DNA of 10,807 nucleotides from an uncultured Clostridia bacterium (GTDB taxonomy: Bacteria; Bacillota; Clostridia; Oscillospirales; Acutalibacteraceae): the NCBI GenBank assembly GCA_946409885.1, contig CAMJYF010000026.1:1-10807 (forward strand). Reading direction: 5' to 3'. Under the pieces are notes generated by a model, which was not told the DNA's origin, ran no database searches, and was given only the letters and a program-made list of their open reading frames with translations. Made by a program: the position numbers and the translations under genes. Of this stretch, positions 1,782 to 10,807 are shown piece after piece; positions within the stretch are counted from its first letter, which is position 1, and each line of letters begins with the position of its first letter.

Positions 1782-2893
1782 AAAAACTCAAACGGGCGGC
1801 GCTGTTTCTGAGCGCCGCGCTGCTGCTGTTCGTATTCGCGCCGTTCGTACCGGCGGATTTCGGCGATTACGCCGGGGATTCCGACTACGGCTACGACGAC
1901 TACGATTCCTACGACTACGATGACGACGACGACGACGACGACGACGGCTGGTTCTTCGGCGGGTCCGGCAGCTCCGGCGGGTCCGGCGGAAAGAGCTCCT
2001 ACTACTCCTTCGGGGATTACCCCGCGGAGGACGTGTACTACGGGGCCATGCGGCTGGCGGACAGCCTGGGCCGGACGATCCGGGACGGCACCCTCAGCAC
2101 GGAGGCGCTGCGTACGCCGGGGGACGACGACAGCGGCGCCGCCCTCGTCGGTCTGGCGCTGCTGCTGGGCACGGCGGCCATCGTCACGGTGGTGATCCTG
2201 CGCGCCCGGTCGCGCAGAGGCGCCCGCCGCAAACGGAAGGTGACCGTCAGAAGCACCGGCCATCAAAACACCCGTTCCGTGGCTCCCGGCGCGCAGCCCA
2301 CGCCGCAAAGCGCATTGCAGAATATCAGCGAGTATTACCGGCTTGACCCGGATTTCTCCGAGGCAGAGCTGTCTGAAAAGATCGCCAACTGGTACGTGCG
2401 ATTCCAGAACGCGTGGCAGGCCCGGGATCTGGAGGAGCTGCGCCCCTGTCTGACCGACGCCTTCTACGCCCAAATGGACCGTCAGATGGCCGTCTACCGT
2501 CAAAAGAAGCAGACGCCCCACGTGGAGCGCATCGCGGTGCTGGGCGTGACCTTGTCTGGTTGGCGGCAGCGGGGCGGCGAGGACCTGATGACGGCCCGGC
2601 TGCGCACCCGCATTGTGGATTACGTCACCGACGACGCCACGGGCAAAATCGTCCGCGGCAGCGACACGGCGGAAAAATTTATGGAATACGAGTGGACGCT
2701 GACCCGCAAAACGGGCGTAACAACCACCGCGGGCGGCGGCGTGCGGGTGCAGAACTGCCCCAACTGCGGCGGCACGGTCAATATCAACCGCACCGCGAAA
2801 TGCCCCTACTGCGACAGCATCATCACCGTGGATTCCTCCGACTGGGCCGTCTGCGAAATCAAAGGCCTTTCCCAACGGACCGGGAAGCGGTAA
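1778..2893 (+). CDS. Tim44-like domain membrane protein with Asp-rich tract and zinc ribbon
   Basis: The 371-aa product starts with a basic n-region and hydrophobic core (residues 4-23) with a possible cleavage site after VPA (26). An Asp/Tyr-rich stretch (29-57, including nine consecutive Asp) and a Gly/Ser-rich linker (61-72) follow. One membrane segment lies at about 120-142, followed by a strongly basic RARSRRGARRKRK stop-transfer segment (142-154). Residues ~188-315 look like a Tim44-like domain: 'DPDFSEAELSEKIANWYVRFQNAW' spacing, then LRPCLTDAFYAQMD and a beta-rich part ending EYEWTLTRK. The protein ends with a zinc ribbon, Cys327/Cys330 and Cys342/Cys345. This arrangement recurs in Clostridia proteins annotated as Tim44 domain-containing. 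In mitochondria this fold binds membranes and the import motor; the bacterial role is unknown. With the basic segment cytosolic, the Asp-rich part would face outward and the Tim44 and zinc domains inward. The start overlaps the upstream stop (ATGA), with GAGGTG just upstream. Confidence 0.75.
   Translation: MKKLKRAALFLSAALLLFVFAPFVPADFGDYAGDSDYGYDDYDSYDYDDDDDDDDDGWFFGGSGSSGGSGGKSSYYSFGDYPAEDVYYGAMRLADSLGRTIRDGTLSTEALRTPGDDDSGAALVGLALLLGTAAIVTVVILRARSRRGARRKRKVTVRSTGHQNTRSVAPGAQPTPQSALQNISEYYRLDPDFSEAELSEKIANWYVRFQNAWQARDLEELRPCLTDAFYAQMDRQMAVYRQKKQTPHVERIAVLGVTLSGWRQRGGEDLMTARLRTRIVDYVTDDATGKIVRGSDTAEKFMEYEWTLTRKTGVTTTAGGGVRVQNCPNCGGTVNINRTAKCPYCDSIITVDSSDWAVCEIKGLSQRTGKR
1919..1945 (+). repeat. 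(GAC)8 trinucleotide run encoding poly-Asp
   Basis: One GAT followed by eight perfect GAC codons encodes nine consecutive Asp in the extracytoplasmic part of the Tim44-like protein. The run is in frame, so slippage would change the Asp count without disrupting the protein. Confidence 0.9.
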
Positions 2894-2895
2894 TG

Positions 2896-3100
2896 GGGGA
2901 TTTGTCGAACCAATTCGGAATGCGGAATTCGGAATGCGGAATGATTGTGAACCTGCGTTTGTGTGCAATTTGAAACGTCCGGATTTGATTATCTCGTTGA
3001 TTCTTTAAGACACCCAATTACAATCAAATCGCGTCAGCGATTTCCGAAATTCCGCATTCCGTATTCCGAATTCCGCATTAAAACGGCTCGACCAACTCCC
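2896..3100. mobile_element. MITE-like inverted-repeat element with 7-bp tandem arms
   Basis: The left arm (2912-2943) is a tandem array of heptads AATTCGG/AATGCGG. The right arm (about 3044-3079) is the same array in reverse orientation. 2919-2943 and 3055-3079 pair at 24 of 25 positions. Outside these, 2896-2911 and 3085-3100 also pair imperfectly (12 of 16, around a shared TCGA core), so the whole ~205 bp is one large imperfect inverted repeat. The interior has a 9-bp inverted repeat (2982-2990 with 3022-3030) and a 7-bp perfect hairpin with GTCA loop (3026-3043). No ORF with plausible coding character lies inside. It sits between two convergent genes, starting 3 bp after a stop codon. It could be a non-autonomous transposable element or a REP/STRR-type intergenic repeat. 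Target-site duplications are not clear. Confidence 0.6.
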
Positions 3101-3142
3101 AATTTGCCGCCATCCACCAAAAAAAACCGTGATAAACCACAA

Positions 3143-3180
3143 AAAAGCGGTATCGGTTTCCCGACGCCGCTTTTCTTTTC
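3143..3180. terminator. Probable bidirectional Rho-independent terminator
   Basis: AAAAGCGG (3143-3150) pairs with CCGCTTTT (3167-3174), and an inner TCGG/CCGA stem (3153-3156 with 3161-3164) extends the hairpin past a 2x2 internal loop. On the plus strand a T-rich tail follows (TTTTCTTTTC). On the minus strand the loop reads GAAA and the hairpin ends in six T. It would stop both the TMEM43-like/Tim44-like operon and the minus-strand phosphodiesterase gene that ends at 3196. Confidence 0.75.
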
Positions 3181-3195
3181 ATGCAGCATACCGCA

Positions 3196-3963
3196 TCAGA
3201 ACACGTCCGATTCAATGTAATCCACGCCCAGGGATTTGCTGTAATTCAGCGACAGCAGATCGTTGCAGGTCCATACGGCAAATTCCAGCCCCGCGTCGTG
3301 GAAGGCCTGCACCATCTCCTCCGTCACGCAGCGGTAATCCGCGTCGATGGAAAAGCCGTGCTCCAGGCAGCGCTCCCAGCCCGTGTCGTCCGCGCCGTAG
3401 GTCAGCATGATGGGCAGGTCCGGGAACTGCTCCCTTGCCTTCAGCAGGTTATCAAAATCAAAGGACTGCAGAATGCATTTGGAAAGGTCGTATACCTCCC
3501 CGGCCAGTGTGAACACCTGATTCACCTGCTCGTCCGTGTAGCCGCCCTTCAGCTCGATAAAGCAGATCATATCGTTCTCCTTCATCACCTCCAGGTAGCG
3601 GCGGAAGGTGCAAAGGTATACCTCGCCGAGGTTTTTGCGTTTCAGCGGCTGGGCGGTCAGCTCCTCCAGCGTGTGGTCGGCAATGGCCAGCACCGTGCCG
3701 TCCTTCAGTGTGATCTCGCCGTCGTGGCTGCACACAAACTCACCGTCTTTGGTGATGCGCACGTCGGTTTCCGCGCCGCCGCTGCCGTGCTCCGCCGCCT
3801 TTTGAAAGGCCAGCTCCGTGTTCTCATGGTACACGCCGCTGTAGCCCCGGTGGGCGATCATGCACACCTGCTTTTGCGGCGCCCCGCCGAACAGGCTGCC
3901 GAAGGCGGTGAAAACGGACATCAGCGTGGCAAGGACCATTTTGAAAATTAACTGTACAGACAT
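3196..3963 (-). CDS. Glycerophosphodiester phosphodiesterase, membrane-anchored
   Basis: This 255-aa protein belongs to the GDPD family (GlpQ/UgpQ type), TIM-barrel enzymes that hydrolyse glycerophosphodiesters to glycerol-3-phosphate and an alcohol using a divalent metal. Visible motifs are AHRGYSG with His38-Arg39, HENTELAF (Glu47-Asn48), ETDVRITKDGEFVCSHDG with Glu65, Asp67 and His80-Asp81, FIELKG with Glu137/Lys139, and a late AVWTCND segment (229-235). The catalytic His pair and metal ligands are therefore present. Residues ~4-26 are hydrophobic and look like a signal anchor, so the enzyme probably faces outward and acts on released phospholipid head groups or teichoic-acid-like material. 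The segment after HDG is slightly shorter than the usual 'T-xR-TT' stretch. The start is supported by AAAGGAGA about 8 nt upstream. It is a single-gene unit with its own promoter and a shared terminator. The exact substrate is not determined. Confidence 0.9.
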   Translation of the reverse strand: MSVQLIFKMVLATLMSVFTAFGSLFGGAPQKQVCMIAHRGYSGVYHENTELAFQKAAEHGSGGAETDVRITKDGEFVCSHDGEITLKDGTVLAIADHTLEELTAQPLKRKNLGEVYLCTFRRYLEVMKENDMICFIELKGGYTDEQVNQVFTLAGEVYDLSKCILQSFDFDNLLKAREQFPDLPIMLTYGADDTGWERCLEHGFSIDADYRCVTEEMVQAFHDAGLEFAVWTCNDLLSLNYSKSLGVDYIESDVF

Positions 3964-3996
3964 GGTCGTCTCTCCTTTTCTGTTCCTATTAAAGTA

Positions 3997-4025
3997 ATCA
4001 TAGCACCGCCGCCGGCGTTTTGCAA
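3997..4025 (-). promoter_or_regulatory. Promoter of the phosphodiesterase gene
   Basis: On the minus strand, TTGCAA (4020-4025) is followed after exactly 17 bp by TATGAT (3997-4002), a good sigma-A-type match 34 bp upstream of the start codon. A ribosome binding site lies between. Confidence 0.7.
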
Positions 4026-4155
4026 TCCTTTCCCATCAGAACCTGCGCAAAAAACGGCGCAATCATTGAAAAAACGTGACTTTCCATAAAAATACAACTG
4101 TGAAATTGTGTGATATTTCCATAATAAAGAATTTCAAGAGAATACCGGAAATCTA

Positions 4156-4184
4156 TTGACAAAACAATACATGATAATTATAAT
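4156..4184 (+). promoter_or_regulatory. Consensus promoter of brnTA, probably leaderless
   Basis: TTGACA (4156-4161), a 17-bp spacer and TATAAT (4179-4184) form a perfect consensus promoter. Transcription would start about 7 nt after the -10 box, near 4191, which is the A of the brnT ATG. No Shine-Dalgarno sequence lies before the ATG. A second TATAAT (4184-4189) overlaps but has a 22-bp spacer. Confidence 0.85.
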
Positions 4185-4192
4185 ATAATTAT
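4174..4192. promoter_or_regulatory. Candidate operator: two ATAATTAT palindromes over the -10 region
   Basis: The self-complementary octamer ATAATTAT occurs at 4174-4181 and 4185-4192, 11 bp apart centre to centre (one helical turn). The copies cover the -10 box and the start codon. BrnA proteins are DNA-binding antitoxins that autoregulate their operon in Brucella, so this is a natural candidate operator. The AT-rich context makes short palindromes less surprising. Confidence 0.45.
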
Positions 4193-4475
4193 GGAAACAA
4201 TATCATTTGAATGGGATGAAAACAAGAATTCCATCAACAAACAAAAACACAAAATCTCCTTTGAAGAAGCCGCAACCGCATTTTATGACGATAACGCGCT
4301 TCTGATAGACGATCCGGAGCATTCCGAATCAGAGGAGAGATTTATTCTGTTGGGGAACAGTTTTTCCGCCAATCTGCTTGTTGTCTGTCACTGCTATCGG
4401 GCATCAGAAACCGTCATTCGCATCATTTCCGCGCGAAAGGCAACCAGACATGAAGCGGAACAATACTATGGATGA
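4191..4475 (+). CDS. brnT: BrnT-family toxin (type II toxin-antitoxin, RelE-like RNase)
   Basis: The 94-aa protein matches BrnT: an ISFEWDENK start, NKQKHKISFEEAATAFYDD (residues 15-34), the DDPEHSESEERFILLG segment (40-55), a hydrophobic LLVVCHCYR strand (62-70) and the C-terminal IRIISARKATRHEAEQYYG (76-94). BrnT proteins have a RelE-like fold and cleave RNA, blocking translation until neutralised by BrnA. The length is typical, and the conserved Arg70, Arg77 and Arg82 are present, so it should be active. The first codon lies at the predicted transcription start, so translation is probably leaderless. The toxin-before-antitoxin order is typical of this family. Codon use is visibly AT-richer than in the flanking genes, which fits horizontal acquisition. 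Confidence 0.93.
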   Translation: METISFEWDENKNSINKQKHKISFEEAATAFYDDNALLIDDPEHSESEERFILLGNSFSANLLVVCHCYRASETVIRIISARKATRHEAEQYYG

Positions 4476-4482
4476 GAGGTGA

Positions 4483-4698
4483 ATGAATATGAGAGAAGAA
4501 TATGATTTTTCCGGGGCAAAAAAGAATCCCTACGCCAAAATGCTGAAAAAGCAGATCACGATCAATATCGACAGCAACGCCATCGCGTATTTCAAAGAGC
4601 AGGCCGCCGCCACAGGCATTCCCTATCAGACGCTGATCAATCTGTACCTGACGGACTGTGCCAGACAGCACAGAAAACTGACAGTCTCGTGGGAATGA
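4483..4698 (+). CDS. brnA: BrnA-family antitoxin (ribbon-helix-helix)
   Basis: The protein has the BrnA layout. A short N-terminal segment, EEYDFSGAKKNPYAKMLKK, is the likely toxin-binding region. The DNA-binding part follows: beta strand QITINIDSNAIAYFKEQAAATGIPYQTLINLYLTDCA. This is the usual pattern for a ribbon-helix-helix/CopG-like fold with a 'GIPYQTLIN' second helix. It lies 7 bp after the brnT stop, so the two genes form one operon. Two starts are possible: ATG at 4483 (71 aa) or ATG at 4489 (69 aa). The ribosome binding site AGAGGTG (4475-4481) abuts the first but has a normal 7-nt spacing to the second, so 4489 is more likely the true start. BrnA binds BrnT and represses the operon. 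Confidence 0.9.
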   Translation: MNMREEYDFSGAKKNPYAKMLKKQITINIDSNAIAYFKEQAAATGIPYQTLINLYLTDCARQHRKLTVSWE

Positions 4699-4807
4699 CA
4701 AGGGAACCTCTCCCTCCGCAAAACAGCAAACGCTGCCCGTCTTTGAGGGGAGATAATGTTTTTTCAGGCAGACTGATGAAACTGCCGTGCGGTGAACCGG
4801 TTCCGTC

Positions 4808-4823
4808 CGCCGCGCGGCGTTTT
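4808..4823 (+). other. 12-bp perfect GC palindrome followed by TTTT
   Basis: CGCCGCGCGGCG (4808-4819) is fully self-complementary and is followed by TTTT. With no room for a loop it is a poor hairpin. It may be a binding site or a weak part of the brnTA terminator region. It lies in the 374-bp stretch between brnA and the ABC transporter gene, where I see no credible gene. Confidence 0.3.
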
Positions 4824-4879
4824 GTGTATATACAGCGCAGTCGCCCGCTGGTGGCAATCCGGCCCCCGCGTCCGAAGGC

Positions 4880-4913
4880 AAATGATACGGCCGCGGTCAA
4901 CGGCCGTCATTTT
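4880..4913 (+). terminator. Probable terminator between brnTA and the ABC operon
   Basis: ACGGCCG (4887-4893) pairs with CGGCCGT (4901-4907) across a 7-nt loop. After a 2-nt bulge the stem extends by AAATG (4880-4884) with CATTT (4908-4912). A short T run (4910-4913) follows. The stem is strong but the U tract is short. Confidence 0.5.
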
Positions 4914-4985
4914 AAACAAAAATATCCCAGAACAATTGTGCATCAATAATGAATTGGTAGAACTTCAAAAGAATCCCGTTTTCGC

Positions 4986-5014
4986 TTGACTTCTCCTGCC
5001 CGTTTGCCTATAAT
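4986..5014 (+). promoter_or_regulatory. Promoter of the ABC-DUF1854-darA operon
   Basis: TTGACT (4986-4991) and TATAAT (5009-5014) are separated by exactly 17 bp, a near-consensus promoter. Transcription would begin near 5021. The transcript would open with a small hairpin, GGAAA (5021-5025) with TTTCC (5032-5036), then six T (5041-5046), leaving a ~52-nt leader before the start codon. Confidence 0.8.
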
Positions 5015-5072
5015 GTGCGCGGAAAAACGGCTTTCCAACATTTTTTCATGACAACCGGAATGGGGTGACAAC

Positions 5073-7322
5073 ATGAAAATCGATACCAACAAACCTTTCC
5101 CTTCCCGCTTTCAGGCGCAGTACGACAGGGTGTTCGGCCAGGAAGCGCCGCTGTTTATGGTGGTGGGCGACCTGACGCTGGCCCAGCAGTACGGCGAATG
5201 CGCCCTCTGCTTTGCCCCGGACGCGGTGTATGCCTTTGACGAGGCCCACCAAGACGGCGTTCTGCGGGTGGGGTACGACGCAATCAAAGAGGCCAAGGTC
5301 AAGCGCATGTACGGCAACGCCACCTTTGACGTGTACTTAAAGGAGGGCGGCCGGAAAAAGCTGGTCCGCTTCACCTTCGCCGCCGCCAACGTGGCGGACG
5401 CCGGCGCGGATTTCATCAACGGGATGATCGCCGGGGAGGACGCGGCGGAGCTGCTGGCCGGGGTGGAGAACACCTTTTTAAAGCAGCGCTCCTTCTGCCC
5501 CAAGTGCGGCCGAAAGCTGCCCTCGCCGGACGCGGAATGCCTGAACTGCAAGGGCAAGGGGAAGATGATCTCCAAATTTGCCCAGTACGCCAAGCCCTTC
5601 AAAAAGGGGCTGATCGTGTGCATGCTGCTGTCCGTCTTCACCACCGCCATGTCCCTGATCCCGCCCTATGTGACGGGCTATATGGTGGATACGGTGCTGC
5701 CCGCCCGCGACGGCAAGGCGCTGGTCACCATGATCCTGGCGCTGCTGGGGGTATACGTGCTGCAGTACGCCGTCTCCGCCCTGCGCACCTACCTGCTGCG
5801 CATGACCGGCGACAAATTCATCATCGGCATGAAAAAGGATATTTACGCCCGGGCGCAGCACCTGCCCATGAGCTTTTACGACAAGACCTCCACCGGCTCC
5901 GTCATCAACCGCATCAACGGCGATACCGCCATGATCCAGAACTTCGTGCTGCGGGTCACCCAGGACGCGGTGGTGCAGTTCTTCACGCTGATCGGCATTC
6001 TGGTCATCATGTGCTGCCTGAACTGGAAGCTGACCCTGTTCTCGCTGGCGCCCATCCCCTTTGTGGCGCTGATCGGCCGCTTTTTCGGCAAAAAGATCGG
6101 CCCCCGCTATATGCGCCTGTGGCGCAGGGGCGCTTCCATCACCACGCTGCTGACGGATACCATCCCCGGCATCCGGGTCATCAAGGCCTTTACCAACGAA
6201 AAGGCGGCGGTGGACAAATACAACGCCTATAACGACGAGTGGCTGAAGGAAGACGCCCACGTGGCGAAGATCTCCAGTATCTTCCCGGCGTTCATGACCT
6301 TCCTCGTCACCTGCGGCTCCCTCATCATCTGGTATTCCGGCGGTTCCTTCGTTATCTCCGGCGAAACGGGCTTTTCCATCGGCCTGCTGGTCAGCTTCGT
6401 CTCCTACGCCAGCATGTTCTACGGCCCCGTCAACTTCTTCGCCAACTTCTCCGATACCTACCAGAACACCCTGGCCAGCGCGGAAAAGCTGCTGGACATT
6501 CTGGACGCGGAGCCGGAGCACGACTTCGGCAAGGGCAACGTGCCGGAGCGCATTGAGGGCAAGATCGAGCTGAAGAACGTCAATTTCTCCTTCGACCGCT
6601 CCAAAAAGACCCTCAGCAACATCAATCTCACCATCGAAAAGGGCGACGTGGTGGGCATCGTGGGCACCACCGGCAGCGGCAAGTCCACCCTGATCAACCT
6701 CATCATGCGCTATTACGACGACTATGAGGGCGAGATCTTCATCGACGGCAAAAACATCCGGGATATCGATATGTCCTACTACCGCAGCCAGATCGGCTTT
6801 GTGCAGCAGGAGCCGCTGATGTTCAAGGATACCGTCTTCAACAACATCGCCTACGGCAGCCCCAACGCCCACGTGGAGCAGGTGCTGCGGGCGGCGGATA
6901 TCGCCAACGCCCACGGCTTTATCTCCCGGCTGCCGGAGGGCTACGACACCCTGCTGGGCGAGCGCGGCACCGGCCTTTCCGGCGGCGAGCGCCAGCGGGT
7001 CTCCATCGCCCGGGCGGTGATGAAAAACCCGTCCATCCTCATCTTCGACGAGGCCACCGCGGCGGTGGACAGTGAAACGGAGCACCTGATCCAGGAGGCC
7101 ATCGAGCGGCTGATCCGGGGCCGCACCACGCTGATGATCGCCCACCGGCTTTCCACCCTGCGCAACGCCAACAAGATCGTGGTGGTGGATAAGGGCGAGA
7201 TCATTGAATGCGGCCCGCCGGAGGAGCTGCTGGCCCAAAAGGGCAAGTATTACAAGCTGGTGCAGATCCAGTCCATGGGCGAGCAGCTGCAAAAGCAGAA
7301 GGCCGCCGAAAACTTTGAATAA
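5073..7322 (+). CDS. ABC exporter (fused permease-ATPase) with N-terminal extension and zinc ribbon
   Basis: The 749-aa protein is a half-transporter of the MsbA/MdlB type with an unusual N-terminus. Residues 1-~138 form a soluble, beta-rich domain resembling a PH-like or GRAM-like fold (inference). A zinc ribbon follows at Cys142/Cys145 and Cys156/Cys159. The membrane domain spans ~165-470. The ATPase shows Walker A GTTGSGKST (531-539), Q-loop FVQQE (577-581), signature LSGGE (635-639), Walker B ILIFDE with catalytic Glu660, D-loop AAVD and His691. All catalytic residues are present, so a homodimer should be active. The start is supported by GGGGTG five nt upstream and by the promoter. A DUF1854 gene follows after 14 bp, then darA after 17 bp. 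ABC-DUF1854 pairs are also known beside cyanophycin genes, but no cyanophycin synthetase is visible here. The substrate is unknown. Confidence 0.9.
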   Translation: MKIDTNKPFPSRFQAQYDRVFGQEAPLFMVVGDLTLAQQYGECALCFAPDAVYAFDEAHQDGVLRVGYDAIKEAKVKRMYGNATFDVYLKEGGRKKLVRFTFAAANVADAGADFINGMIAGEDAAELLAGVENTFLKQRSFCPKCGRKLPSPDAECLNCKGKGKMISKFAQYAKPFKKGLIVCMLLSVFTTAMSLIPPYVTGYMVDTVLPARDGKALVTMILALLGVYVLQYAVSALRTYLLRMTGDKFIIGMKKDIYARAQHLPMSFYDKTSTGSVINRINGDTAMIQNFVLRVTQDAVVQFFTLIGILVIMCCLNWKLTLFSLAPIPFVALIGRFFGKKIGPRYMRLWRRGASITTLLTDTIPGIRVIKAFTNEKAAVDKYNAYNDEWLKEDAHVAKISSIFPAFMTFLVTCGSLIIWYSGGSFVISGETGFSIGLLVSFVSYASMFYGPVNFFANFSDTYQNTLASAEKLLDILDAEPEHDFGKGNVPERIEGKIELKNVNFSFDRSKKTLSNINLTIEKGDVVGIVGTTGSGKSTLINLIMRYYDDYEGEIFIDGKNIRDIDMSYYRSQIGFVQQEPLMFKDTVFNNIAYGSPNAHVEQVLRAADIANAHGFISRLPEGYDTLLGERGTGLSGGERQRVSIARAVMKNPSILIFDEATAAVDSETEHLIQEAIERLIRGRTTLMIAHRLSTLRNANKIVVVDKGEIIECGPPEELLAQKGKYYKLVQIQSMGEQLQKQKAAENFE

Positions 7323-7336
7323 GGAGGCGGCGCGGC

Positions 7337-7825
7337 ATGATCACCTATATTGACGGTCCCGAGGCGCGCATCACGCCCAACGACGGCATTTTTGTGGACG
7401 TGGAATTTTACCACACCAAACAAAAGCTGACCGGCCTGGAGCCCCACCGGCTCTTTCCCCGGTCCGGCGGCAACCGGTACGTGGCCCTGCTGGACGGCGA
7501 CGGCAACCAGGTGGCGGTGATCCGCAACGCGGATAACCTGCTGCCGGAATCCAGAGAGACGCTGCTGGCGGCCATGGAGGAATACTACATGATCCCCCGC
7601 ATCACGCGGTTCATCAAAATGACGGAAAAATTCAAGATATGGATGTGGACAGCCCAGACCGACAAGGGCGAGATCACCTTTGAGATCCGCAACCATATCG
7701 CCTCGGTCAAGCCCCTGTACGACGGCCGCGTCCTCATCAAGGACGCCAACGACAACCGCTACGAGATCCCCGATTACCGCCAGCTTGACAAAAAGAGCCA
7801 GAAAATGCTTTTACCGAAACTATAA
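7337..7825 (+). CDS. DUF1854 domain protein, ABC exporter partner
   Basis: The 162-aa soluble protein has the DUF1854 pattern: HRLFPRSGGNRYVALLDGDGNQVAVI (residues 37-62), NLLPESRETL (67-76), YYMIPRITRFIKM (83-95), then TDKGEITFEIRNHIASV (108-124) and the C-terminal RVLIKDANDNRYEIPDYRQLDKKS (131-154). I see no signal peptide, membrane segment or catalytic motif. DUF1854 genes usually sit directly after an ABC exporter gene, as here, and in proteobacteria the pair is associated with cyanophycin loci. It is probably an accessory or regulatory subunit of the transporter; its biochemical function is not known. The strong AAGGAGG ribosome binding site (7321-7327) overlaps the upstream stop codon at 9-nt spacing, so the gene is translated from the same transcript. 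Confidence 0.85.
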   Translation: MITYIDGPEARITPNDGIFVDVEFYHTKQKLTGLEPHRLFPRSGGNRYVALLDGDGNQVAVIRNADNLLPESRETLLAAMEEYYMIPRITRFIKMTEKFKIWMWTAQTDKGEITFEIRNHIASVKPLYDGRVLIKDANDNRYEIPDYRQLDKKSQKMLLPKL

Positions 7826-7842
7826 AACAGGAGGAGTACGCA

Positions 7843-8169
7843 ATGAAACTGATGATAGCGATCGTGAACAACGACGACAGCGCGGTGGTGGCCTCCGCGC
7901 TGACCAAGGAAAACTTTGTGGTGACCAAGCTTTCCACCACCGGCGGCTTTTTAATGGTGGGCAACACCACCTTTCTGATCGGCATGGAGGACAACAAGGT
8001 GGAGGCCGCCAAAAAGATCATCTCCCAGTATTCCCACACCCGCACCCACCAGGCCGCCACCACCGAATCCTTCGGCCGCGGCTTTGCCGAAGGGGCCCTG
8101 GCCCACGACGTGACCGTAGGCGGCGCCACCGTGTTCGTGCTGGGCGTGGAGGAGATGGAAAAATACTGA
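7843..8169 (+). CDS. darA: Cyclic-di-AMP receptor DarA/PstA (PII-like)
   Basis: The 108-aa protein starts MKLMIAIVNNDDS and contains ALTKENFVVTKLSTTGGFLMVGNTTFLIG (residues 20-47) and the C-terminal VTVGGATVFVLGVEEMEKY (90-108). These are hallmark stretches of the DarA/PstA/YaaQ family. Members form PII-like trimers that bind c-di-AMP between subunits; the TTGGFL/GNTT segment lines the pocket. The region between the two blocks (about 63-88) is the mobile loop, here with several His/Thr. The length is normal for the family (~109 aa). In Bacillus and relatives this gene lies with tmk and holB; here it closes an ABC exporter operon. AGGAGG (7829-7834) is 8 nt before the start. The downstream target of this receptor is not established in general. 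Its placement suggests it could tune the transporter in response to c-di-AMP. Confidence 0.93.
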   Translation: MKLMIAIVNNDDSAVVASALTKENFVVTKLSTTGGFLMVGNTTFLIGMEDNKVEAAKKIISQYSHTRTHQAATTESFGRGFAEGALAHDVTVGGATVFVLGVEEMEKY

Positions 8170-8209
8170 TCCGCCCGCGTCCCTTCCGCGCATGGACGAC
8201 CAAGAGAAG

Positions 8210-8256
8210 AAGGGTCCCCGAACGTTTTTTCCGTTCAGGGACCCTTGCTTTTTTGA
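8210..8256 (+). terminator. Strong Rho-independent terminator after darA
   Basis: A 15-bp stem (8210-8224 with 8232-8246, one C-A mismatch) with a 7-nt loop is followed by GCTTTTTTGATTTTT. On the opposite strand the mismatch becomes a G-U pair, but only a broken T run follows, so it might weakly stop the convergent operon too. Confidence 0.9.
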
Positions 8257-8330
8257 TTTTTCCACGGACCGTTCCGCGACGGCTGATCTTATTGTTGTAT
8301 AAAGACCGGCTTTTCGGCGGGGGACAGCGA

Positions 8331-8711
8331 TCACTCGTATTCCGTCTGAATGGCCTCGTGGCGGCAGCGGACCACGCACATGCCGCACTGGGTGCATTTT
8401 TCCTGCATGATGGTAAACGGCTTGCCCCGCTCGCCGAAGGGGGCCTTTTCCGGGCAGACGTGGCGGCAGACGGTGCAGCCGACGCAGTTTTCCGGCAGAA
8501 TCGTCACCTTTTTCAGCCGCCGGTGATCCGGGCAGGGCTCGATGGCGTTGTTGGGGCAGATGTTTTCGCAGTGGCCGCAGCCCACGCATTTCTCCTTGGG
8601 GATCTCATATTTCGATTTATCCGGAGCCGCGCCCTGGGGCACGCCGAACAGGCACACCCACGCGCAGGCGCCGCAGCCCACGCACTTTTCCTCAATGATC
8701 CTGTATGCCAT
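8331..8711 (-). CDS. Ferredoxin-type protein with four 4Fe-4S motifs
   Basis: The 126-aa protein is almost entirely iron-sulfur motif. There are four CxxCxxCxxxC sets: Cys10/13/16/20, 42/45/48/52, 76/79/82/86 and 106/109/112/116, plus an extra Cys60. It should carry up to four 4Fe-4S clusters and act as an electron carrier. There is no signal or Tat peptide, so it is cytoplasmic. The gene follows the MoaD-like gene by 3 bp, with ribosome binding site GGGAGG inside the end of that gene. It shares an operon with an aldehyde:ferredoxin oxidoreductase-family enzyme and most likely takes electrons from it or delivers electrons to it. The arrangement recalls YdhY beside YdhV in Escherichia coli. 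I see no clear terminator of its own in 8257-8330. Confidence 0.9.
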   Translation of the reverse strand: MAYRIIEEKCVGCGACAWVCLFGVPQGAAPDKSKYEIPKEKCVGCGHCENICPNNAIEPCPDHRRLKKVTILPENCVGCTVCRHVCPEKAPFGERGKPFTIMQEKCTQCGMCVVRCRHEAIQTEYE

Positions 8712-8714
8712 GGC

Positions 8715-8969
8715 TCACCCTCCCGAAGCGGGGCTCAGCAGCCAGATCTCGTCCCCGTCGCTGAGCTTCTGTGATTTTTTGCGGCAGCTTTCGCCGTTGA
8801 CGTAGACCACCGCGTCCTTGAACTGCAGGCCGGATGCCAGCTGCGCGCCGCCCAGCTTTTCATGCAGCGCGTCGAATACGTCCTTCAGCTTTTCCGCGCC
8901 CACCTCCACTTCGGCTGTGCGCGTATCCACACGAAACACGCCGAAGAGCTTTACCTTTACCTGCGCCAT
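8715..8969 (-). CDS. MoaD/ThiS-family small sulfur carrier
   Basis: The 84-aa protein has the ubiquitin-like MoaD/ThiS layout: VKVKLFGVFR at the N-terminus, AVVYVNGESCRKKSQKLSDGDEIWLLSPASGG at the end, and the terminal Gly-Gly (83-84) that is adenylated and thiocarboxylated in this family. It may supply sulfur for the tungsto- or molybdopterin cofactor of the adjacent oxidoreductase. It could also act as a dedicated carrier in another sulfur transfer; no MoaE, MoeB or ThiF is visible in the window. The start codon overlaps the stop of the upstream gene by one base (TAATG), with AAAGGAGG about 10 nt before the start, so the three genes are tightly coupled. Confidence 0.9.
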   Translation of the reverse strand: MAQVKVKLFGVFRVDTRTAEVEVGAEKLKDVFDALHEKLGGAQLASGLQFKDAVVYVNGESCRKKSQKLSDGDEIWLLSPASGG

Positions 8970-10807
8970 TACCGGTACGCCTCCTTTACCGCCGCGTCAT
9001 AGACGCTTCTGTCGATTTTGATGCCCAGCGTTTTCAGCCGGTGCCAGGTGGGGATGCCGTCCTTCCAGCCGCGGGCGCGGTAGTAGACGGGCATCATCTT
9101 ATCCAGCGGCACCTTCGTGCGCGGGTCCTTCGGGTCCTGGGGCTCGTCGGTGAGGCGGCCGGGCAGGGTGTCCGCGTCCGCCTTCTGACCCAGTATCACG
9201 TTGGCGATGCGCTCCGCGTTGTAGCCGTAGGCGCCCCAGGTGAGCATCTTCCCCATGGTGGAGGGGATGCCCGTGGCGTATTTGATGGCGTAGGATTCCG
9301 GCAGCAGCGGGATGTTGATGGCCGGGGCCTTGGTGAAGTGGCTCAGCAGGTTGATCACCGGGCCCACGTAGGGGAAGGCCGCCAGGATGATCTTGGTCAG
9401 CGGCCAGTTGGGCTTGTCGATCAGAAAGCCCGGCAGCACCGCGTAGCTGGTGAACAGGCACTCGCCGCCGGCGGAGACCGCCTCCATCAGGTTCTGGAAC
9501 ATGATGGCCAGCGCCGCCTTGCCGTGGTAGGTAAGGGAATCCACATCCAGGCCAAGGCCTTCCACCACCACCAGATAACCGGCGTTCAGGTGGCAGCCGC
9601 CCCGGTTGGCGGTGGCGTAGCCCAGGCCGTGGCCCACCGCGTGGCGCGGGGTGTAGGCCGCCAGCTCCATGCCCTTGGCGTTGATGGCGTAATCCTTGCC
9701 GCCGAACTCCTCGCTCAGCCAGCGGGAGCCGTTGGCCAGCAGATCGCCGTCGCCCTCCCGCAGGGCGATCTTGTGGAACATCTCTTCGATGTTGTCGGTC
9801 TTGCCGAAGCGCAGGCCGAAGTCCCGCACGCCCTTTTCCGCCAGCTCCATGGCAAAGGCCACGGTGCCCGCGGCGGAGATGGAATCCATGCCCAGCTCGT
9901 CCAGCACGTAGTTCCAGCGGATGATCTTTTCGATATCGTCGTTGAGGATATTGGCGCCCAGCAGCCCTAATATCTCCAGCTCCGGGCCCTTGACCACCTT
10001 GTCGTCCACCTTCACCATGCGGGCGCAGCGGATGGCGCAGGTGGTGCAGGCGGCGTTGCTGACCAGATGGTTTTCCGCCAGCTCCTCGCCGGAGATCTTT
10101 TCAAAGCCGTCGAAGCGCCCGGCGCTGAAATTCTTGGTGGCAAGGATCTTATGGGCCTGCATGGGGGCGATGAGCCCCGCCGTGCCCAGCTTTGGCAGCT
10201 GGCGGCCCGTCAGCGGATGGGTCTTGAGGATATGCACCCATTTTTCGTTGGTCTTTTTCAGTTTGTCCCGGTTGCGCACCGTGGGCAGCGCCGTGCCGAA
10301 GGCGGTGACGGCCTTCAGCTTTTTATCGCCGAAGACGGCGCCCACGCCGCCCCGGCCCGCCGTGCGCTCGCCCGAGAACACGCAGGCGTACAGCACCTTG
10401 TGCTCCCCGGCGGGGCCGATGACCAGCTTGCCGGTCTGTTTGGGCAGCTTTTCCTGGGTCTCCGTGGTGGTGCAGCCCCACAGGGAGGAGGCGTCCGTAA
10501 AGATCACGTCGTCGTGCAGGATGCTGACGGTGACGGGCGTTTCGCTTTTGCCCGTAAAGATGACCGCGTCGTACCCGGCGCGCTTGAGCCACAGGCCGAA
10601 ATCGCCGCCGCAGTTGGAGGAGGTGACGATGCCCGTCAGCGGGGAAACCGTGGAGATGTTGAAGCGGGAGGAATTGGGGCAGCCGCAGCCCGTCAGCGGG
10701 CCGGTGGTGACCACGATCCAGTTGTCCTCGTCAAAGGCCTTCATGCCCGCGTGGACGTGGTGCAGCAGGATATCCGCCGCCATCACCTTGCCGCCCAGCG
10801 TGCGCTT
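8969..10807 (-). CDS. Aldehyde:ferredoxin oxidoreductase-family enzyme (5' end outside window)
   Basis: The frame stays open to the window edge; beyond the GTG at 10786 the codons read K-R-T-L-G-G-K, the conserved GG segment, so roughly 20-25 N-terminal residues are missing. The family is recognisable by TTGPLTGCGCPNSSRFNISTVSPLTG (residues ~27-52 from that GTG), GGDFGLWLKRAGYDAVI (60-76), FSGERTAGRGGVGAVFG (137-153) and ATANRGGCHL (391-400). The 4Fe-4S ligands are Cys247-x2-Cys250-x3-Cys254 plus, by position, Cys443 in GECLFTSY. Such enzymes bind a tungsto- or molybdo-bis-pterin and oxidise aldehydes, or reduce acids, with ferredoxin as electron partner. The four-cluster ferredoxin downstream suits this. 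The substrate cannot be assigned, and members of this superfamily also include benzoyl-CoA reductase-like proteins. It ends one base inside the MoaD-like start. Confidence 0.93.
   Translation of the reverse strand, partial: KRTLGGKVMAADILLHHVHAGMKAFDEDNWIVVTTGPLTGCGCPNSSRFNISTVSPLTGIVTSSNCGGDFGLWLKRAGYDAVIFTGKSETPVTVSILHDDVIFTDASSLWGCTTTETQEKLPKQTGKLVIGPAGEHKVLYACVFSGERTAGRGGVGAVFGDKKLKAVTAFGTALPTVRNRDKLKKTNEKWVHILKTHPLTGRQLPKLGTAGLIAPMQAHKILATKNFSAGRFDGFEKISGEELAENHLVSNAACTTCAIRCARMVKVDDKVVKGPELEILGLLGANILNDDIEKIIRWNYVLDELGMDSISAAGTVAFAMELAEKGVRDFGLRFGKTDNIEEMFHKIALREGDGDLLANGSRWLSEEFGGKDYAINAKGMELAAYTPRHAVGHGLGYATANRGGCHLNAGYLVVVEGLGLDVDSLTYHGKAALAIMFQNLMEAVSAGGECLFTSYAVLPGFLIDKPNWPLTKIILAAFPYVGPVINLLSHFTKAPAINIPLLPESYAIKYATGIPSTMGKMLTWGAYGYNAERIANVILGQKADADTLPGRLTDEPQDPKDPRTKVPLDKMMPVYYRARGWKDGIPTWHRLKTLGIKIDRSVYDAAVKEAYR

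Follow-up and report, generated by a model that had tools for sequence, protein, structure and literature searches.

In bacteria, glnK forms an operon with amtB and is one of a pair of paralogues with glnB. SbtA and SbtB are likewise encoded in one operon and form a complex (PMC10117731; here and below, the papers cited are represented by excerpts). For the sensors of the DarA/PstA family (B. subtilis, L. monocytogenes, S. aureus) the binding partners are reported as unknown; in PstA, cyclic di-AMP (c-di-AMP) has been described between the subunits of the trimer, with ordering of the T-loops (PMC4475381, PMC12435418). We analysed a stretch of 10,807 nucleotides from an uncultured Clostridia bacterium (the window; contig C26 of an assembly that totals 2.33 Mb over 428 contigs, with a completeness of 69% and a contamination of 0.19%), whose + strand carries, in this order, the genes of an ATP-binding cassette (ABC) half-transporter, a DUF1854 protein and a DarA/PstA-type protein of family PF06153 that we named DarA2. 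From sequences and structural models we infer that DarA2 is probably a c-di-AMP-responsive regulator, that is a dedicated sensor subunit, of this ABC-DUF1854 exporter.

Among known systems, GlnK-AmtB and SbtB-SbtA, in which a PII-type regulator is encoded alongside the transporter that it controls, come closest: there too a PII-superfamily protein shares one operon with a transporter, and the ABC-DUF1854-darA triplet shows the same conserved, operon-like linkage. It differs in that the partner is an ABC exporter with a DUF1854 protein rather than a trimeric channel or a symporter, and in that the expected ligand is c-di-AMP. DarA2 shares family, length and c-di-AMP contact residues with DarA/PstA, but belongs to a separate clade, lies behind ABC-DUF1854 and not beside holB/tmk, and carries a distinctive lysine at position 57 (see below). 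The cyanophycin-associated ABC and DUF1854 proteins (NF052233 and NF052234) belong to the same two families and are the best NCBIfam matches. We rejected this assignment, as the scores missed both cut-offs (553 of 880 and 71.7 of 150 bits, respectively); no cyanophycin synthetase scored over the cut-off in any of the nine triplet genomes searched (9/9), the window's genome being 69% complete. Our searches of an open-licence library turned up no description of the ABC-DUF1854-darA2 unit.

The three-gene unit and its recurrence

The initial annotation had described a single operon with gaps of 14 and 17 nt, ribosome-binding sites, one promoter and one terminator, and both the sequence and the placement of signals in the relatives bear this out. 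The two gaps (positions 7323-7336 and 7826-7842) each contain a GGAGG-type ribosome-binding site, and none of the nine other promoter-like sites of the window falls between the promoter at the head of the unit (Table 1) and position 8169. Behind darA2, the 65 nt from 8196 to 8260 fold with a free energy of -30.4 kcal/mol (z -5.6), and none of 200 shuffles matched the stability of the hairpin. The terminator scan reported this hairpin on the - strand only; given that call and the convergent gene at 8331-8711, it may act as a bidirectional terminator. Of the 57 usable loci of the relatives, 44 had a promoter-like site (at least 10/12) within 150 nt 5' of the ABC gene and 3 had one 5' of darA (49 and 17, respectively, at the looser threshold of 9/12). 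A terminator-like site followed darA in 33 of 75 loci, compared with 3 for a stretch of the same length taken within the ABC gene, the denominator of this control being at most 75. The median gaps were 14.5 nt between ABC and DUF1854 (76 loci) and 16.5 nt between DUF1854 and darA (78 loci); outliers reached 511 nt (between ABC and DUF1854 in L106) and 1584 nt (darA2 1.6 kb downstream in L111). A Shine-Dalgarno-like site preceded darA in 71/78 loci. Taken together, these data support the view, at the level of sequence signals, that the three genes form one transcription unit.

A survey for the triplet beyond this genome, which the initial annotation had proposed, found that it recurs; its absence elsewhere, which that annotation would have counted as refuting, was thus not observed. 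Among 147 genomes of the order, PF06153 was present in 90 (94 places) and DUF1854 in 50 (69 places), and the three genes lay on one strand in nine genomes, the window's included (G000, G021, G041, G042, G077, G091, G100, G131 and G137; 9/69 DUF1854 places). In all nine the two matches share a strand, with PF06153 21-98 nt behind DUF1854, and a window-type ABC gene comes before DUF1854. The 94 PF06153 places comprised 80 linked to holB (the window genome's own on contig C30, 57 of the 60 fetched first and 22 of the 23 fetched later), 9 behind DUF1854, 1 fused to a major facilitator superfamily (MFS) transporter, 2 elsewhere (L180, L195) and 2 at a contig edge (L190, L248). In a wider phylum sample of 398 genomes, DUF1854 was found in 20, with no DarA match at any of the 26 places outside the window genome, some of these loci being cut by contig ends. 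We then scanned one genome each for 84,980 species with a DUF1854 alignment and kept the best 80 of 225 relatives: 78 of these 80 loci had a DarA-type gene, 76 an ABC gene and 75 all three. Their record titles read Clostridia, Clostridiales, Eubacteriales, Oscillospiraceae or Ruminococcaceae, and many of the samples came from ruminants, deer and horses; on the sequences covered, the unit has so far been seen in Clostridia only, many of them from the gut. When the neighbours at the same 80 loci were clustered, no other family exceeded 17 loci, bar a frame antisense to the unit itself, present at 24 loci. By this comparison the three genes are conserved together as a self-contained unit while the flanking genes change.

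Some loci were incomplete. L083 begins inside DUF1854, and two of the three broken units still have every part in the genome: L071 has DUF1854 alone, the ABC gene of that genome being directly followed by darA2 at another locus (L206), and L092 has DUF1854-darA2 without an adjoining ABC gene, which is found on another contig (G540:C16; 63% identity to the window's protein). L112 is also a DUF1854-darA2 pair without an adjoining ABC gene, so that DarA2 is linked to ABC alone in one broken unit and to DUF1854 alone in two. At L071 (3616-5486) the triplet-type DUF1854 gene stands between two other genes, which we take from their sequences to be MgtE-like and methionyl-tRNA synthetase-like.

DarA2, the ABC-DUF1854 pair and the transporter fusions

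The window's DarA2 scored 103.9 bits against PF06153 (gathering cut-off 27), and its closest solved relatives are PstA/DarA structures. All the c-di-AMP contact residues of Listeria PstA (LmPstA) that we checked are present: T28, GGFL 34-37, N41, G47 and F99. They are among the residues by which LmPstA touches c-di-AMP, and the F36A and N41A substitutions weakened its binding to 7 and 140 micromolar, respectively (PMC4475381). Across the 82 distinct triplet DarA2 proteins (from 87), T28, G34-G35-F36-L37, N41 and F99 are invariant, G47 is kept in 81 and G94 in 80; the pocket is thus intact. In a tree built on 108 columns only, which combined 48 of the 82 with 63 PF06153 proteins from outside the triplets, the triplet proteins form one clade (SH-aLRT 99). 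They are set apart from the 63 others by K57 (77/82 vs 0/63), S31 (80/82 vs 13/63) and valine or isoleucine at T-loop residue 39 (81/82 vs 7/63). The window's DarA2 missed the cut-off of the DarA equivalog NF058593 (108.6 of 140 bits), and five triplet proteins, the window's included, ranged from 103.5 to 116.4. Six holB-linked proteins from genomes of the order, the window genome's included, served as a control and missed it as well (118.5-132.2 bits), so DarA2 and the local DarA cannot be told apart by this cut-off. The place beside holB/tmk that goes with the equivalog is not that of the window gene, which sits behind DUF1854. On this sequence evidence we assign DarA2 to PF06153 but not to the DarA equivalog.

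The genome search found two PF06153 genes in the host, the window's (102.8 bits) and one on contig C30 (127.5 bits) that directly precedes a gene named from its sequence as DNA polymerase III delta'-like (holB). Because of this holB-linked copy in the same genome, the window gene is, by sequence and place, a paralogue. The initial annotation had contrasted this darA with the usual tmk/holB site; the window copy is indeed paired with a transporter, but it belongs to an often coexisting paralogous clade and is not a relocated DarA, the copy on C30 having been missed. The 50 triplet genomes (78 triplet-type loci) include 30 with two or more PF06153 genes, and in the 28 for which we fetched the second copy, it was beside holB in every case (28/28). 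In one further two-copy triplet genome (L064) the other copy is apparently a second triplet (L078, same assembly name). Assemblies SIG595 (L094, L095) and RUI251 (L064, L078) each hold two triplet-type loci, SIG595 also with a holB-linked darA. In the order sample, the extra copy was attached to a transporter in all four two-copy genomes (three operons and one MFS fusion); in six of the nine triplet genomes the DUF1854-linked copy was the only PF06153 match (five genomes 97-98% complete, one 83%). The host has one diadenylate cyclase match, and such a gene is present in 9/9 triplet genomes of the order. It also has a second DUF1854 gene, on C218, beside another ABC gene and without a DarA match there.

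The first protein of the unit combines ABC_membrane and ABC_tran domains and has the features of an ABCB/MsbA-type exporter, its ATPase motifs being intact: the Walker A, signature, Walker B and AHR patterns are all present, and they occur in 66, 69, 70 and 71 of 71 full-length relatives, respectively. Among solved structures, ABCB-type exporters and Sav1866 are nearest to it in sequence. Since there is a single ABC gene in the unit, the half-transporter presumably works as a homodimer. Its N-terminal extension contains a PH-like domain, with the seven-strand barrel closed by a C-terminal helix that is typical of the PH-domain superfamily; behind this domain lies a knuckle of four cysteines (C142, C145, C156, C159), invariant across 66 aligned rows, whose pattern CxxCG..CxxC recurs in 67/71 full-length relatives. 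From this motif we take the knuckle to bind zinc.

The DUF1854 protein scored 124.4 bits against PF08909 (gathering cut-off 26.8). The initial annotation had called this family a usual partner of the ABC protein, and an ABC match was indeed found within 1.5 kb in 56/56 other DUF1854 loci fetched (of 93 other places), which supports, on gene neighbourhood, the view that ABC proteins of this family regularly have a soluble DUF1854 partner. The triplet-type DUF1854 proteins fall on their own side of one tree branch (SH-aLRT 99). In 34 of these 56 loci there were two ABC matches. Such ABC-DUF1854-ABC clusters of related genomes resemble the triplet in having DUF1854 beside an ABC gene, with an N-terminal extension on the ABC protein in the three that we inspected (L004, L214 and L216) and the four-cysteine knuckle in L004 and L214; they differ in having a second ABC gene across DUF1854, where the triplet has darA2. 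In L216 (G112:C98), a darA-holB cluster occupies 5115-6422, and the same strand then carries ABC at 7570-9867, DUF1854 at 10012-10557 and another ABC frame.

Both soluble families also occur fused to transporters. In L214, an ABC-DUF1854 fusion occupies a single frame of 1024 codons (2247-5318, - strand), followed by the second ABC gene. In one order genome, a PF06153 domain is joined to the C-terminus of an MFS transporter in a single open frame of 530 codons (L210, 288-1877, + strand). When this domain was used as query against proteins of about 290-930 residues, all six matches were transporter fusions: four clusters were MFS (P0241-P0244, one being the query's own gene) and two were Na+/H+ exchangers (PF00999; P0245, P0246) whose C-terminal PF06153 domain keeps the GGFL motif and the N41-type asparagine. 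Such fusions suggest, without proving, that the separate proteins touch. It is a tentative thought, which we hold to be somewhat doubtful, that acting on transporters is a general job of the PF06153 family, c-di-AMP gating the three unrelated ABC-DUF1854, MFS and Na+/H+ antiporter families through one PII-like sensor; if so, the target of DarA/PstA in the model Firmicutes should be sought among exporters.

Proposed control of the exporter and alternative explanations

We propose that the products of the three genes act as a single membrane machine equipped with a second-messenger sensor of its own. In this machine the ABC protein would be an exporter bearing the PH-like domain and the zinc-ribbon-like knuckle at its N-terminus, and DarA2 a PII-like trimer that, judging from its residues, would bind c-di-AMP between subunits with ordering of the T-loops. 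The change in the T- and B-loops would make DarA2 attach to the cytosolic part of the exporter, at DUF1854, the PH-like domain or the nucleotide-binding domain, or detach from it, and the altered contact could change ATPase activity or cargo access, so that export would be switched on or off with the c-di-AMP level, much as GlnK acts on AmtB or SbtB on SbtA. In Listeria and B. subtilis it is the apo form of PstA/DarA that does harm (PMC12802241, PMC7857571), which hints, by analogy, that ligand-free DarA2 could be the partner-binding form. That DarA regulates this exporter was already the suggestion of the initial annotation. It gains support from the self-contained module, from the split operons that keep their parts and from the PF06153-transporter fusions.

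Several observations weigh against it. C3-symmetric partners are expected for DarA/PstA (PMC12435418), and the symmetry of a DarA trimer does not match that of an ABC dimer, which is a real difficulty; an adaptor role of DUF1854 would be one way round it. At 48 other non-triplet DUF1854 loci fetched (of 56 other loci) no DarA match lies within 1.5 kb, and the genome of L129 has a triplet-type ABC-DUF1854 pair with no PF06153 match anywhere, an apparent loss of the sensor or an assembly gap; DarA2 is thus not required for the pair. No ABC gene of the window's type was found in the genome of L112 at the threshold used. Only one PF06153 gene is seen in 20 of the 50 triplet genomes, where DarA2 may also serve other DarA roles. 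T97 is kept in 55/82 DarA2 proteins and replaced in 27 (by isoleucine in 22), and position 26 is variable. Moreover, nearly all loci come from metagenome assemblies, and among the four two-copy genomes the one with the MFS fusion (G048) has a completeness of 87% and a contamination of 7%. The DarA-less pairs, L129 and the single-copy genomes would also fit mere co-expression, in which DarA2 and the exporter answer the same stress and DarA2 acts on another soluble target without ever touching the transporter. We hold this to be unlikely, because the three genes stay together as their flanks change, two split operons retain the three parts, and PF06153 is fused to transporters elsewhere.

Two further explanations concern the cargo or the ligand. 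Transporters that export c-di-AMP are known in Listeria, and the exporter might itself move c-di-AMP or a related nucleotide out, DarA2 acting as its sensor or as a feeder, through which export opens at high c-di-AMP; the pairing of a putative c-di-AMP binder with an exporter and the diadenylate cyclase gene of all nine triplet genomes would agree with this. Since the ABC family occurs without DarA at 48 of the 56 other loci, the cargo need not be c-di-AMP, and we give this explanation little credence. It is just as improbable, in our view, that DarA2 keeps the fold and senses another adenine nucleotide (ATP, ADP or AMP, for example), reporting the energy state to the exporter. The replacements of T97 and the variable residue 26 would allow it, and the PII-like SbtB binds several adenyl nucleotides (PMC10117731). 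The contacts T28, GGFL, N41 and F99, however, do not vary and G47 hardly does, two of these being the positions whose substitution weakened LmPstA binding, and the excerpt of PMC4475381 says that LmPstA does not bind ATP. With DarA2 as c-di-AMP-responsive regulator of the ABC-DUF1854 exporter, the conserved unit, the intact pocket and the fusions would give the question of what DarA binds named, testable candidate partners, and both DUF1854 and the PH-like N-terminus of the ABC protein would gain a suggested role.

Coordinates and neighbouring genes in the window

Table 1. Features of the ABC-DUF1854-darA2 unit, in window positions.
Feature	Position	Strand	Evidence or remark
Sigma-70-type promoter-like site, TTGACT-17-TATAAT	4986..5014	+	11/12 match; upstream of ABC gene
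ABC exporter half-transporter, 749 aa, with N-terminal extension	5073..7322	+	PF00664 E 2e-52, PF00005 E 6e-34
PH-like domain in N-terminal extension of ABC protein, aa about 24-121	5142..5435	+	
Four-cysteine zinc-ribbon-like knuckle of ABC protein, aa 142-159	5496..5549	+	motif
DUF1854 protein, 162 aa, beta-rich, C-terminal half weakly PH-like	7337..7825	+	PF08909 E 3e-36
DarA2, DarA/PstA-type c-di-AMP receptor paralogue, 108 aa	7843..8169	+	PF06153 E 7e-30
Predicted c-di-AMP pocket segment of DarA2: T28, G34-G35-F36-L37, N41, G47 (LmPstA numbering, gapless)	7924..7983	+	
Intrinsic-terminator-like hairpin at operon end	8210..8246	+	folding energy vs shuffles; GCTTTTTT 3' of it on + strand

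Just upstream of the operon, positions 4191-4698 hold BrnT toxin-type and CopG/BrnA antitoxin-type genes, with a 12/12 promoter match at 4156-4184. Convergent to the operon, positions 8331-10786 encode a ferredoxin (8331-8711) and an aldehyde ferredoxin oxidoreductase; the small frame between them (8715-8969) is presumably ThiS/MoaD-like. Further upstream, at 1778-2893 and behind a frame at 879-1781, lies the gene of a Tim44-like domain protein with a C-terminal CxxC..CxxC stretch.

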